DNA of 64,000 nucleotides, taken from Ramlibacter pinisoli (GTDB lineage Bacteria; Pseudomonadota; Gammaproteobacteria; Burkholderiales; Burkholderiaceae_C). How positions within the stretch are numbered: position 1 is the first letter of the stretch; each line of letters opens with the position of its first letter. A program made the position numbers and the translations under genes. The DNA is taken from contig NZ_WSEL01000009.1 in assembly GCF_009758015.1 (NCBI RefSeq), positions 124,001-188,000 on the forward strand, in the 5' to 3' direction. Under the pieces are notes generated by a model. That model made no database searches. It had not been told where the DNA came from and was given only the letters and a program-made list of their open reading frames with translations. Shown in pieces: positions 32,518 through 39,374 of this stretch.

Positions 32518-35500
32518 GCCCTCAGAACGGTCAGGAGGTCATGCGTGTTGACAGGCTTGGACAGGTAATCCCATGCGCCCGCCTCGATGCACTTCTCCCG
32601 GTCGCCCTTCATCGCCTTGGCCGTGACCGCGATCATGGGCAGGTTCTTGCCTTGCGGGAGCTTGCGGATCTCCTTCATCGTGGCCATGCCGTCCATCTCC
32701 GGCATCATGATGTCCATCAGCACGACCTCGATCTGGGGGTCATTGGCCACGCGGCTGATCGCCTCGCGGCCATTGTCGGCCCAGACGATGTCCATCGAGT
32801 GCTCCTCGAGGACGGTGGCCAGCGCGAAGATGTTGCGCATGTCGTCGTCGACGATCAGCACCCGCTTGCCGGCCAGCGGCTTGGCCGCCGACACGGTGTC
32901 CTCCAGCAGGTGGCGCCGCGCCTCCGGCAGCCGGGCCACGCTCTGGTGCAACGCCAGCAGCGCGGCATCGTAGAGCATCTCCACCGTGTGCAACTCGCGC
33001 ACGGTCACCCGGTCGTCCGAATGCCAGGCGAAGCGTCCGCCCTCGTCCATGCCGGTGCGGTACAGCAGCAACGGCAATGGGCCCAGCGCGGCCTGCGCTT
33101 CCAGGGCGTGTCGCACCTGGGCGGTGTCGAGCTTGCCGAAGGCGTCGTCCAGCACCACGCAGTCGAACTGGCTCTCGTCCAGGGCGTCGAAGAACTTGTC
33201 GGCGCCCTTGACCACCACCGGATGGATGTCATCGCCTTCCAGCAGGCCCAGGAATTCGTTACGGGCGCCGGTGTCCTTCATCGCCACCAGCACGTTGCGC
33301 TGCTTGCGCGAGGCATAGGACCGCAGCATGTCGAGCATGCCGTCCAGGATTTCCTTGGACTGGATCGGCTTCTCGACGAACGCCAGGGCCCCGCTTTTGA
33401 ATGCGCGTTCCTTGGAATCGTCGGTGGAGATGACGCACACCGGTATGTGGCGGGCGATGAAGTCCTGCTTGAGCCGGTCGAGCACGCGCCAGCCGTCCAT
33501 GTCGGGCAGGTACATGTCGAGCGTGATGGCCGCGATCTGGAACTGGTTGGCGAACGTCAGCGCGCCGGCCCCCATCGACGTGACCAGCCCCTTGAACCCC
33601 TTGGCACGTGCCGCATCCAGCAGGAAGCGGGCGAAGGCCAGGTCGTTCTCGACGATCAGCAGCACCTGGTCGCCTTCCTGGATGGTGGCGCGGTCGTCGT
33701 CCGCCTCGTTGCGACTCGCCGCGGCCGCGTCCGCGGCTTCATCGGGCACGGGCTCGGGCAGCGGCGCCGGCTTGGGCGGTGCGAGCCGGCGCGCGTGCGC
33801 CACCGGGTCGATCGTGCGGCCCTCGGAGAACGAACTGGTGCGCCGGGTGGCGCGCGTCGAGGGATAGTGCACCGGCAGGTACAGCGTGAACGTGCTGCCC
33901 TGCCCCGGCGCGCTGGCCAGCCGGATCTCGCCGCCCAGCAGCTTGGACAGCTCGCGGCTGATGGCCAGGCCCAGGCCGGTGCCGCCGTACTTGCGGCTGG
34001 TCGACCCGTCGGCCTGCTGGAACGCCTCGAAGATGATCTGCTGCTTGTCGCCCGAGATGCCGATGCCGGTGTCCGACACGGCGAACGCCACCACCTGGCT
34101 GGCCCGGTTGAGCTCCTCGTGATCGGAACTCCAGCCCGTGACCACTTCCTCGATGGTCAGCGTCACGTTGCCCTGGTGGGTGAACTTGAACGCGTTGGAC
34201 AGCAGGTTCTTCAGGATCTGCTGCAGGCGCTTGATGTCCGTGACCATCGCCAGCGGTAGCTGCACGCCGGTGTGGATGAGGAACTCGACGTTCTTGGCCT
34301 CCGCCACGTGGCGGAAGGTGCGCTCCACGTAGAGCTGCAGATCCGACAGCCGCAGCTCGCTGACGTCCACGGCCACCGTGCCCGACTCGATCTTGGACAG
34401 GTCCAGGATGTCGTTGATCAGCATCAACAGGTCGTTGCCGGACGAGTGGATCGTCTTGGCGAATTCCACCTGCTTGGTCGTGAGGTTGCCGTCCGGGTTC
34501 TTGGACAGCTGGTCGGACAGGATGAGCAGCGAGTTCAGCGGCGTGCGCAACTCGTGCGACATGTTGGCCAGGAACTCGGACTTGTACTTGGACGTCAGGG
34601 CCAGCTGCTTGGCCTTTTCCTCCAGCGCTTGGCGGGCCTGCTCCACTTCCTGGTTCTTGCGCTCCACCTCGTGGTTCTGGTGCACCAGCAGGCGGGCCTT
34701 CTCCTGCAGTTCCTCGTTGGTCTGCTGCAGTTCCTGCTGCCGGCTCTGCAATTCCTGCGCGAGCGACTGCGACTGCGTCAGCAGGTCCTCGGTGCGCATG
34801 TTGGCCTCGATCGTGTTGATCACGATGCCGATCGATTCGGTCAGCTGGTCGAGGAACTGCTGGTGGGTGGGATTGAAGCGCTCGAGCGAGGCGAGTTCGA
34901 CCACGCCGCGCACCTGCCCTTCGAAGATGATGGGCAGCACCAGCACGTTGATCGGCGACAGGTCGGTCAGCCCGGACGAGATGCGCAGCGAGTCGGGGAT
35001 GCTGGACGTGAGCAGGATCTTCTTCTTGTCGAAGGCGCACTGGCCCACCAGGCCTTCGCCCAGGTCGACCTCCTTGCCGTAGGCGCCATGGCCGTCCGAC
35101 GCGTAGCTGGCCATCAGGTGCAGCTTGGGCATCTCCTGCGTGTAGCGCAGCACGTAGAACTCGGCCTGCTGGGCACCCACCACCGGAGCCAGCTCCGACA
35201 GGATCAGGTGGCCCACGGCGACCAGGTCTTTCTGCCCCTGCAGCATCCGCGAGAACTTCGCCAGGTTGGTCTTCAGCCAGTCCTGCTCGGTGTTCAGCTG
35301 CGTGGTGTCCTTCAGGTTGCGGATCATCTCGTTGATGGTGTCCTTCAGCGCGGCCACCTCGCCCTGCGCCTCCACCGTGATCGACCGCGTCAGGTCACCC
35401 TGCGTCACGGCCGTCGCCACCTCGGCGATGGCGCGCACCTGCGTGGTGAGGTTGGCGGCCAGCTGGTTCACGTTCTCGGTCAGGCCCTTCCAGGTGCCCG

Positions 35501-38500: not shown

Positions 38501-39374
38501 AGTTCACCGAATCGGTGAGGTCCTTCCAGGTGCCGGCCACGCCTTGCACGTCGGCCTGGCCGCCCAGCTTGCCTTCGGTGCCCACTTCGCGCGCCACCCG
38601 TGTCACTTCGGCCGCGAACGTGCCGAGTTGCTGCACCATCTTGTTGATGATCATGGCGGTGCGCAGGAATTCGCCTTCCAGTGGCCGGCCATCGGCCTCG
38701 AGCGCCATCGACTTGGACAGGTCACCCTGGGCGACCGCACCGATCACCCGCGCCACCTCGGATGTCGGGTGCACCAGATCGGCGATGAGGGAGTTGATCG
38801 ACTCGGCCGAATCACGCCAGAGGCCGGTCGCATTGGGAACCTGGGCCCGCTCCTTCAGCTTGCCCTCCTTGCCCACGACCCGTGACAGGCGGGCCAGTTC
38901 CTGCGAGATGCGGACGTTTTCGTTCACCACGTCGTTGAATGAATCCGCCACCTTCCCGAAGACGCCCGTCCAGTCGGCCGGCAGCTGCGCCTTGGCATTG
39001 CCCCGCTTGAGGTCGGTCAGGGCCTTGAGCAACGCGCGCGTGTTCTCGCCGGCGATCTCCAACTCGTCGACCAGCAGGTTCATGGTGGCCACGTTGTCCT
39101 GCCAGAACCCGGTGAGCTTCTCGTCGTGGATGCGCCGGCTGGCCTTGCCACCCAGGCGCGAGACGGTCTCCACTGACTTGAGCTTGTGCGTCGTCCGCGC
39201 GGTCTGCGCACTCAGTTCGTTGAATTCCGCGGCCAGCTTGCCGTGGATGCCTTCCCACTCGGTCGGCAAGGTGACGCCGCCTTCGCCGCGCCGAAAGGCG
39301 CCCAAGGCGTTCAGCAAGAGCTTGAGCTCGCCGCCCTGTTGCTCCGTGATCGGGAGCTTCGCCAGTACTTCCAT
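32502..39374 (-). CDS. Giant poly-HAMP hybrid histidine kinase (Nik1/group III-like)
   Basis: 2290-residue soluble protein from the ATG of [15 protein letters not shown]. Residues about 1-240 hold divergent HAMP-like segments. About 241-1350 is a tandem HAMP array with ten units of exactly 92 residues. GAF follows (about 1390-1530), then a Gln/Glu-rich coiled coil and HisKA (His near 1606, [15 protein letters not shown]). HATPase_c (about 1708-1841) has [17 protein letters not shown] and [12 protein letters not shown]. Then come REC1 (about 1895-2011), a degenerate receiver (about 2025-2125) and a canonical C-terminal REC ([35 protein letters not shown]). No membrane segment. This is the layout of fungal osmosensing group III kinases. 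The signal is unknown. Confidence 0.92.
35400..38650 (-). repeat. Tandem 276-bp HAMP-encoding repeats inside the giant kinase gene
   Basis: The NTMVDQL-encoding stretch recurs at plus-strand positions near 35868, 36144, 36418, 36695, 36970, 37248, 37522, 37800, 38076 and 38352, a fixed 276-bp (92-codon) period. Copies differ by a few residues, such as SSFASEV or [16 protein letters not shown] or DSVNSMAGN, and TKAV or TTAV. The unit near 36150 is a clear variant (GEILQIKDV), and flanking units at both ends are more diverged. The near-identity over 2.5 kb implies recent duplication or gene conversion. Confidence 0.9.

Follow-up and report, generated by a model that had tools for sequence, protein, structure and literature searches.

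OsaA (SCO5748) of Streptomyces coelicolor is described as a large hybrid kinase with no transmembrane helix, more than 10 HAMP domains and a receiver, and its gene adjoins that of the receiver protein OsaB (SCO5749) (PMC9739842). This bacterial multi-HAMP kinase has been tied to osmoadaptation (PMC9739842, PMC10117811), and deletion of osaA in S. coelicolor is reported to have a minor effect only (PMC10117811). In fungi, the 92-residue repeats of CaNik1p are described as HAMP pairs, and group III kinases as cytosolic hybrid kinases with 5-6 repeats (PMC3848655). In the myxococcal poly-HAMP protein MXAN_6735/LILAB_12790 the tract is reported as expanded or contracted between related species (PMC4603909). 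PMC6282006 was considered as an account of HAMP repeat copy number and set aside, as it deals with subtelomeric repeats. HAMP removal from Nik1-type kinases is reported to alter activity. The main accounts of poly-HAMP arrays are probably those of Dunin-Horkawicz & Lupas 2010 and Airola 2010, which we know from reference lists only; our literature search found no published account of the present array. The kind of kinase described here is already known, and the interesting part is the contrast between two paralogous arrays, A and B.

The array gene and its repeat units

The window, by which we mean the whole stretch of 64,000 nucleotides analysed, holds the array gene with the following features.

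32502..39398, minus strand: paralogue A, a multi-di-HAMP hybrid histidine kinase of 2298 aa when read from a GTG start (open reading frame, Pfam domains)
38631..38906, minus strand: unit 1, first HAMP pair, divergent, residues 165-256 (unit HMM)
36423..38630, minus strand: units 2-9, eight near-identical HAMP_2+HAMP pairs, residues 257-992
36147..36422, minus strand: unit 10, distinct '[13 protein letters not shown]' type, residues 993-1084, 73-80% aa identity to the near-identical units
35871..36146, minus strand: unit 11, near-identical type, residues 1085-1176
35595..35870, minus strand: unit 12, divergent, residues 1177-1268
35319..35594, minus strand: unit 13, last HAMP pair, residues 1269-1360
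34818..35231, minus strand: GAF_2, residues 1390-1527 (Pfam)
34380..34583, minus strand: HisKA, residues 1606-1673, with H1615 within HELRTPL (Pfam)
33870..34238, minus strand: HATPase_c, residues 1721-1843 (Pfam)
32520..33670 (bounds approximate), minus strand: C-terminal receiver region, two Pfam Response_reg stretches, the best at 2180-2292

Residue numbers of paralogue A start at the GTG; the ATG at 39374 (2290 aa) is the more likely start, and the database copy of the protein has 2290 aa. The strict 276-bp tandem period that an earlier note on this DNA had read from the letters is borne out by two repeat searches: TRF reports 35331-38620 with period 276, 11.9 copies, 86% matches and 0% indels, and the second search finds 12 copies with 11 of 11 spacings exactly 276, in frame inside ORF 32502-39398 (minus strand). 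A unit HMM delimits 13 tandem 92-residue units (35319-38906, minus strand), and the 12 HAMP and 13 HAMP_2 stretches that Pfam places within the array make each unit a HAMP_2+HAMP pair. The "ten near-identical 92-residue HAMP units" of the note thus keep their length and strict tandem order, but there are 13 of them, nine are near-identical, and each comprises two HAMPs.

The near-identical units are 2-9 and 11, at 91-100% pairwise amino acid and 88.4-95.7% nucleotide identity, the nearest pair reaching 95.7% over 276 bp. Units 10 (69-80% aa identity to units 2-12) and 12 (69-77% aa) are divergent, as are units 1 and 13 at the array edges. Unit 12 has its best match in the last inner unit of each of four other species compared. 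Unit-10-type units occur in 22 of 229 arrays scanned, distant phyla included and with duplicates such as the database copy of the present protein retained; the type may be old or may have moved in. N-terminal of unit 1, residues 1-164 give a single weak half-module match (74-101).

Behind the array follows GAF-HisKA-HATPase-REC, the order taken to mark the family; it is common to Streptomyces L084, Bradyrhizobium L040 and Flavobacterium L060 (one locus each). Candidate receiver aspartates, by motif reading, are 1961 and 2229, and a receiver-like segment without the usual motifs lies between the two Response_reg stretches. The GAF_2 domain is possibly a second sensor alongside the HAMP array. 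The kinase is probably soluble: no 19-residue window of the whole protein exceeds a KD mean of 1.6.

Among the nine near-identical units dN is 0.035 and dS 0.29, and 11 of 92 residue columns vary as compared with 46 of 92 codon columns. Very recent duplication is ruled out as the source of the near-identity; a dS of ∼0.29 indicates a likeness kept by selection on the protein. We do not take dS as a clock, since codon preference or conversion may draw units within a genome together. Fourfold-site identity is 0.80 (A) and 0.76 (B) between units within a genome, and 0.65-0.70 between species in orthologous kinase regions.

The note had taken an alternation of S and R versions as a hint of two-unit duplication steps. 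In the genome of the present DNA (G000; other G labels denote same-genus genomes) the order in units 3-12 is SRRSRSRSRS; of 252 orders, 10 alternate this strongly or more so (p 0.04), for one codon picked after the pattern was noticed. Whole-unit DNA similarity of the G000 array shows no lag-2 excess (p 0.72), and relatives differ in S/R order; the duplication steps are accordingly not supported. Similarity is raised at lag 3 in G000 (p 0.005) and G009 (p 0.032) and at lag 2 in G012 (p 0.022), but five lags were tried on each of 11 A arrays, uncorrected, and three values of p<0.05 are about the chance yield of 55 tests, which leaves lag 3 as a hint and not a proof. The lag test bears on A arrays alone, as in B too few units came through its filter for the values to have meaning.

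Unit positions in paralogues A and B

Paralogue A has 10, 12 or 13 units depending on the species (11 intact same-genus orthologues), whereas each of the 8 intact same-genus loci of paralogue B carries 15; arrays at contig ends or frameshifted were left out, and edge units were excluded from the identity tests. The share of units whose best match lies at their own position ranges from 0 to 0.62 across 23 species pairs in A and from 0.64 to 1.00 across 28 pairs in B, and averages 0.97 in Bradyrhizobium (55 pairs). Units hold position in B and in the tested Bradyrhizobium and Streptomyces arrays, the latter being 5 of the 10 loci, selected for clean register, and the former all but the contig-cut L064. 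In A, position is held at p<0.01 in 7 of 23 pairs, namely G000-G009 and all six among G011, G016, G021 and G023, where the residue signature by position is R R R S S R R R S. For the remaining 16 pairs, on-position DNA identity differs from off-position identity by just -0.4 to +0.9 points. Unit positions in paralogue A are conserved only inside clades. The A units also resemble one another more closely than the B units do, and this alone makes a position signal fainter. The earlier note had expected copy number to vary between strains, and had named as the opposite outcome a fixed number in diverged relatives with old unit identities; the latter is what B and Bradyrhizobium show, and A does not.

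We favor the view that, from clade to clade, inner units of A have traded positions through unequal exchange and conversion while strong selection acted on the protein. A gene-conversion scan across units, which ignores uneven site rates, finds significant runs in both A and B and is at most suggestive of conversion. In the comparison of G009 with G013 the best alignment omits one block, units 5-7, and the other eight pairs are 89.5-93.5% identical; the aligner charges per gap and favors one block, so three single losses also fit. For G000 vs G013, block starts at units 2 to 7 are nearly equal (mean nucleotide identity 90.4-91.1%), and the alignment found contains a poor pair of 79.7%.

The chief competing account, which we consider doubtful, has the units stem from old duplications and stay alike through selection and codon preference, with no continuing exchange; A would then differ from B only by a smaller number of position-specific residues and by a few length changes of old date. 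The dS of ∼0.29 between units and the position-keeping A signatures of the four-genome clade speak for it. So does the small synonymous memory of position even in B, where fourfold sites agree at 62-79% on-position and 60-72% off-position; within-genome fourfold identity is high in B as well, where positions are stable, which means that codon preference can mimic homogenization. It sits poorly with three copy numbers in A against one in B within the same genus, with the 16 A pairs that barely distinguish on- from off-position, and with the G009 vs G013 alignment, in so far as that reflects loss of a block.

Exchange in A and fixity in B would also accommodate a further reading, which we hold tentatively: the two paralogues may run at two speeds, B, like the Bradyrhizobium array, carrying a positional code of fixed length in which each unit is irreplaceable, and A having uniform, interchangeable units and an adjustable length. 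On this tentative reading, A would gain and lose whole pairs, perhaps once a block of three, and selection would keep its units alike. If true, unit identity, beyond HAMP number, would be informative in one kinase class (B) and not in the other (A). Because the same genomes hold position-keeping and exchanged arrays, the role of each unit vs that of length is testable by whole-unit removal.

A large family with a receiver partner

The array kinases form a large bacterial family: the homologue search scored at least 8,000, of which the best 120 proteins were taken for listing. Copy number was tallied on the best 80 of 587 loci, which gave 71 intact loci after 9 at contig ends were left out. Both samples are biased to the query, and at least two genomes, matched by contig and ORF length, are present in both the locus and the protein set and were retained in the tally and in the partner count below. 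Loci have 7-15 units with a mode of 12 (31 of 71 intact loci); six have 7 units, of which L063 may be truncated. Bradyrhizobium has 12 units in 11 of 11 intact loci. The 13 units here, which the earlier note had called more than usual, exceed the 5-6 repeats described for fungi (PMC3848655) but are ordinary in the bacterial family. Its statement that the units are far more uniform did not hold up: mean inner-unit amino acid identity of the G000 A array is 0.916, and 8 of 10 other intact same-genus orthologues are higher. Steps between units are 91-93 residues in 976 of 1068 cases and never near 46 or 138, an absence of half-unit steps that is expected from recombination alone; since the unit is a HAMP pair, gain or loss of whole units leaves the HAMP alternation unshifted.

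The array gene is followed by a partner gene, whose ATG precedes the array gene's stop in a 16-bp overlap.

30433..32517, minus strand: partner gene, 694 aa, REC (25-136)-GAF-HisKA-HATPase-REC (open reading frame, domains, receiver tree)

By a strict rule, 84 of 103 loci have such a partner. In the receiver tree, for which 63 of the 84 were kept after most same-genus receivers had been thinned out, a single clade of 75 tips, of low support (0.28), takes in 61 of 63 partner receivers, including 10 of 10 from Streptomyces, and no receiver of an array protein falls in it. The tree places the N-terminal receiver of the present partner in this OsaB-like clade, so that an adjacent partner with an N-terminal receiver of one clade is found here too, at the same support of 0.28. 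Partner output modules vary (receiver alone, REC-PAS-HWE_HK, REC-HisKA-HATPase, REC-GAF-HK-REC), and the conserved receiver partner is likely a shared phosphate acceptor of OsaA-type kinases across phyla.

We consider it unlikely that the gene encodes a genuine bacterial osmosensor of the Nik1 type that responds to phenylpyrroles. The earlier note's "bacterial counterpart of fungal Nik1 osmosensors" is apt for the build, as the 92-residue HAMP-pair repeat and the hybrid kinase are common to both (PMC3848655), and an osmotic link is published for OsaA/B (PMC9739842, PMC10117811), from which such a link for the present kinase could be drawn by analogy. It does not extend to the GAF domain, the second Pfam receiver, the receiver partner gene and a unit number above the fungal 5-6 (fungi being compared by description); the host is bacterial, without fungal lineage or HOG-pathway output, and fludioxonil reportedly acts on triosephosphate isomerase and not directly on the kinase (PMC6433957). 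A wrong copy number in the present assembly is very improbable: assemblies often break at tandem repeats this long, contig ends cut several of the same-genus A arrays and those of G014 and G015 are frameshifted, but the units are distinct even in the nearest pair, G009 (3 contigs) also has 13 units and G007 (1 contig) 12, and counterparts of unit 10 and of the edge units are present in G009 and G013.

Proposed mechanism and comparison with known systems

Our main reading joins a soluble OsaA-type hybrid kinase, a HAMP-rod input, relay to the partner, and units exchanged in A and fixed in B; we give it, taken together, a probability of about 0.6. The input half would be one long rod of ∼26 stacked HAMP bundles (13 HAMP_2+HAMP pairs) in a kinase presumed to act as a dimer. 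The rod, possibly with the GAF domain, may sense the physical or chemical state of the cytosol and switch between kinase and phosphatase. Gene order and domains suggest a relay in which H1615 would hand phosphate to the C-terminal receivers, and these in turn to the N-terminal receiver of the partner, whose output module would vary by phylum.

Structures bear on the rod. The match of PDB chain 9trk ('histidine kinase,Gcn4p') to paralogue A begins at residue 118 and runs to roughly halfway through unit 3 (E 1.5e-119), and the match to 9trj reaches the middle of unit 2; in sequence both closely resemble the first part of the present array, and both have the stacked HAMP fold. Our literature search found no paper title on either entry. 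The predicted structure is poor (mean pLDDT 57.7) and was used for the helix pattern only. With this low-confidence model Foldseek returned nothing at E<=0.001, and its weak top three were Aer2 poly-HAMP structures (PDB 3lnr, 4i3m, 4i44); 9trk and 9trj are absent among the best 50 of 63 matches (library to 2026-04-08), and sequence search alone gave both. Aer2 and the present gene have the stacked HAMP fold in common, Aer2 being described as a chemoreceptor with three N-terminal HAMPs (PMC3570549).

The myxococcal case, likened by description, is one species pair in which a poly-HAMP tract likewise expands or contracts (PMC4603909). The present gene resembles the fungal group III kinases (Nik1/Os-1/CaNik1p) in its 92-residue HAMP-pair repeats and hybrid kinase build (PMC3848655). 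It differs from them in its GAF_2, two Response_reg stretches and 13 units, and fungi have a eukaryotic HOG output. Fungal group III kinases have a single receiver and are not known to carry a GAF domain. The closest likeness is to OsaA/OsaB, a large soluble multi-HAMP hybrid kinase beside a receiver gene, and by the size, HAMP number and neighbor described for OsaA (PMC9739842) the present family very probably includes it. In all 10 Streptomyces loci fetched (other than S. coelicolor) the array counts 11 units and a receiver ORF lies downstream, and the one scanned is GAF-HisKA-HATPase-REC; the present array differs in its 13 units, and its partner has GAF-HK-REC behind the receiver where OsaB has a coiled coil.

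The array gene and its repeat

The repeat lies in one gene of a pair, and both genes and their architecture are observed directly.

32502–39398, minus strand: repeat-bearing ORF, the array gene (ORF scan)
30433–32517: partner gene, REC-GAF-HisKA-HATPase-REC (ORF and domain scans)

The partner's ATG at 32517 lies inside the array gene, whose stop codon ends at 32502. The gene upstream of the array gene (39630–40886) encodes a periplasmic binding protein (Peripla_BP_6) and is apparently a separate transport gene.

The tandem repeat is real: TRF gives 35331–38620 with a period of 276, 11.9 copies, 86% matches and no indels, and a repeat search returned 12 copies with a spacing of exactly 276 in 11 of 11 steps. 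An earlier note, made from the sequence alone, had counted ten units, each taken as a single HAMP domain. Both points are revised here. A unit HMM finds 13 units (residues 165–1360), and Pfam places 12 HAMP and 13 HAMP_2 matches on the array protein, followed by GAF_2, HisKA, HATPase_c, and two Response_reg stretches, a pattern from which we conclude that each 92-residue unit is a HAMP pair. CaNik1p is likewise described as having nine HAMPs, arranged as four 92-residue pairs and one single (PMC3848655). The array protein looks soluble, since none of its 19-residue windows has a KD mean >1.6.

Pairwise identity among units 2–9 and 11 is 91–100% in protein and 88.4–95.7% in DNA; against the other inner units (those without edge units 1 and 13), unit 10 is 69–80% identical and unit 12 69–77%. 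Unit 10 (36147–36422) is a distinct type, with half-units 90–94% identical to it in Polyangium, a Verrucomicrobiales MAG, and a Methylococcaceae genome. The type occurs in 22 of 229 arrays scanned (duplicates included), as an adjacent pair in 9 of those 22; the window has one copy, and the same-genus genomes G009 and G013 have two.

For two PDB chains, both labelled 'histidine kinase,Gcn4p', the alignment starts at residue 118 of the array protein; it runs about halfway into unit 3 for 9trk (E 1.5e-119) and about halfway into unit 2 for 9trj (E 2.9e-68). The predicted model is of poor quality (pLDDT 57.7) but shows long helices in alternation with connectors; its top three Foldseek matches are Aer2 poly-HAMP (E 0.02–0.06), and neither chain is among the best 50 of 63 matches (structure library to April 2026).

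Unit number and uniformity in the family

A search over 5.8 billion proteins found at least 8,000 relatives (8,000 of 8,000 scored candidates matched), 120 of them listed, and a search of genome contigs kept the best 80 of 587, 71 of them with both array and kinase intact; both samples are biased towards the query. The intact loci carry 7 units (6 loci), 10 (9), 11 (15), 12 (31), 13 (4), 14 (2), or 15 (4). Across the 120 proteins listed, the most frequent number is likewise 12 (70 of 120; range 11–18). Steps between unit starts are 91–93 residues in 976 of 1068 cases, 95–107 in 91 (where rows are shown, the first step, past a divergent first unit), and 70 in one, with none near 46 or 138. The steps are thus of whole pairs. 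Recombination alone would be expected to give no half-unit steps, because the two halves of a unit have hardly any sequence in common (protein self-identity at offset 46, 6.7%). From these counts and step lengths, the window's unit number and spacing are ordinary for the family.

Nor are its units unusually uniform, as had been claimed: the mean inner-unit identity of 0.916 is surpassed in 8 of 10 other intact same-genus orthologues. Values of at least 0.90 occur in 8 of the best 80 loci, two of them Caenimonas, of the window's own group, and register slips depress some values. In Massilia, Duganella, and Rugamonas, 4 of 4 loci (L070, L072, L075, L077) have a 7-unit version whose units mostly keep their positions in a comparison of three inner units.

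Unit positions in two paralogous arrays

The window's genome (G000) encodes another kinase of this type, B (L138, G000:C9:1422000-1436500), with 15 units, a kinase part 53% identical to that of the window's paralogue, A, and its own downstream REC partner gene. This paralogue contrast seems to us the part worth following. Among intact same-genus A arrays (n = 11), two have 10 units, seven have 12, and two have 13, whereas B has 15 in 8 of 8, and a frameshifted B in G014 also totals 15. Seven genomes have both arrays intact, with 13, 13, 12, 10, 12, 12, and 12 units in A and 15 in every B; within the window's clade, A has 13, 13, and 10. Array genes split across frames (L128, L149 (G014) and L120 (G015)) reflect sequencing or assembly error or broken genes.

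We asked, by permutation, whether the best match of each inner unit is the unit at the same position. For B it is in 64–100% of units per pair (28 of 28 pairs p < 0.001), and positions are kept throughout the genus. For A the figure is 0–62%, with p < 0.01 in 7 of 23 equal-length pairs, all within a clade (G000–G009 and 6 of 6 among G011, G016, G021, and G023); A positions therefore last a while and are lost between clades. Positions are also stable in Bradyrhizobium, where all 11 intact arrays have 12 units and position match averages 97% over 55 pairs, and in Streptomyces (97% over 10 pairs, 5 of 10 loci used). Against this stability in the other groups examined, A stands out as unusual. Between the G009 and G013 A arrays the simplest difference is a block of three units. 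Similarity at lag 3 is elevated in two of the 11 A arrays, G000 (p 0.005) and G009 (p 0.032), both p values being raw over 55 tests, and not in the other nine; the two-unit duplication steps proposed in the earlier note need correction. A poly-HAMP tract that has grown or shrunk between species has been described for one myxobacterial pair (PMC4603909). A tentative reading is that A units are interchangeable and are gained and lost, while B and Bradyrhizobium arrays are positional with fixed length.

Unit likeness is due to protein-level selection, not youth: the nine near-identical units have a median dN of 0.035 and dS of 0.29, and of their 92 columns 11 vary at the residue level and 46 at the codon level. 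Fourfold-site identity within a genome (A 0.80, B 0.76) exceeds that of orthologous kinase regions (0.65–0.70, five genomes), so synonymous sites give no unit age. Old duplications might instead be held alike by selection and codon preference without continuing unit exchange, which we consider unlikely.

Partner gene and likeness to OsaA/OsaB

Under a strict rule (receiver ORF, same strand, ≤1.5 kb downstream of the array gene), a partner is present in 84 of the 103 loci that leave room for one, out of 106 examined. Eleven of the 19 misses have a same-clade receiver upstream or beyond the rule, a match to the partner turns up in four more (L033, L054, L121, L145), and L065, L070, L071, and L072 have no adjacent partner. 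A tree of 372 receivers, built after same-genus copies had been thinned, includes 63 strict-rule partner receivers; 61 of them group in a single 75-tip clade of low support (0.28), with L009 and L017 outside. Judging from coordinates, the other 14 tips appear to be partner genes upstream or beyond the rule, that of L009 being 6 kb off. All Streptomyces partners (10 of 10) belong to this weakly supported clade, which contains no receiver from an array protein itself. Four further partners scanned with Pfam have PAS-HWE_HK, HisKA-HATPase, GAF-HK-REC, or PAS-HK-REC outputs.

The array is a real repeat in an already known kind of protein. Taken as one, the best explanation (probability about 0.6) is a soluble, dimeric rod kinase of the OsaA type that would pass phosphate to its partner's receiver, with A units exchanged between clades. 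The HAMP rod may sense or relay cytosolic state, and the HAMP pairs would act as sign-keeping units; two HAMP conformers of Aer2 are reported to give opposite signals (PMC3570549), and HAMP-repeat deletion in Nik1-type kinases to alter or lock activity (PMC3848655). By kinship with OsaA, one might guess at an osmotic input; osaA deletion is described as having a minor effect only (PMC10117811). The Streptomyces coelicolor kinase OsaA is described as 1829 aa with more than 10 HAMPs and a receiver, and OsaB as a receiver with a coiled coil (PMC9739842). The Streptomyces partners found here are ORFs of 288–328 residues, the single one scanned with Pfam being receiver only, and, compared by published description, these loci of an array gene and a receiver-type partner agree with OsaA/OsaB.
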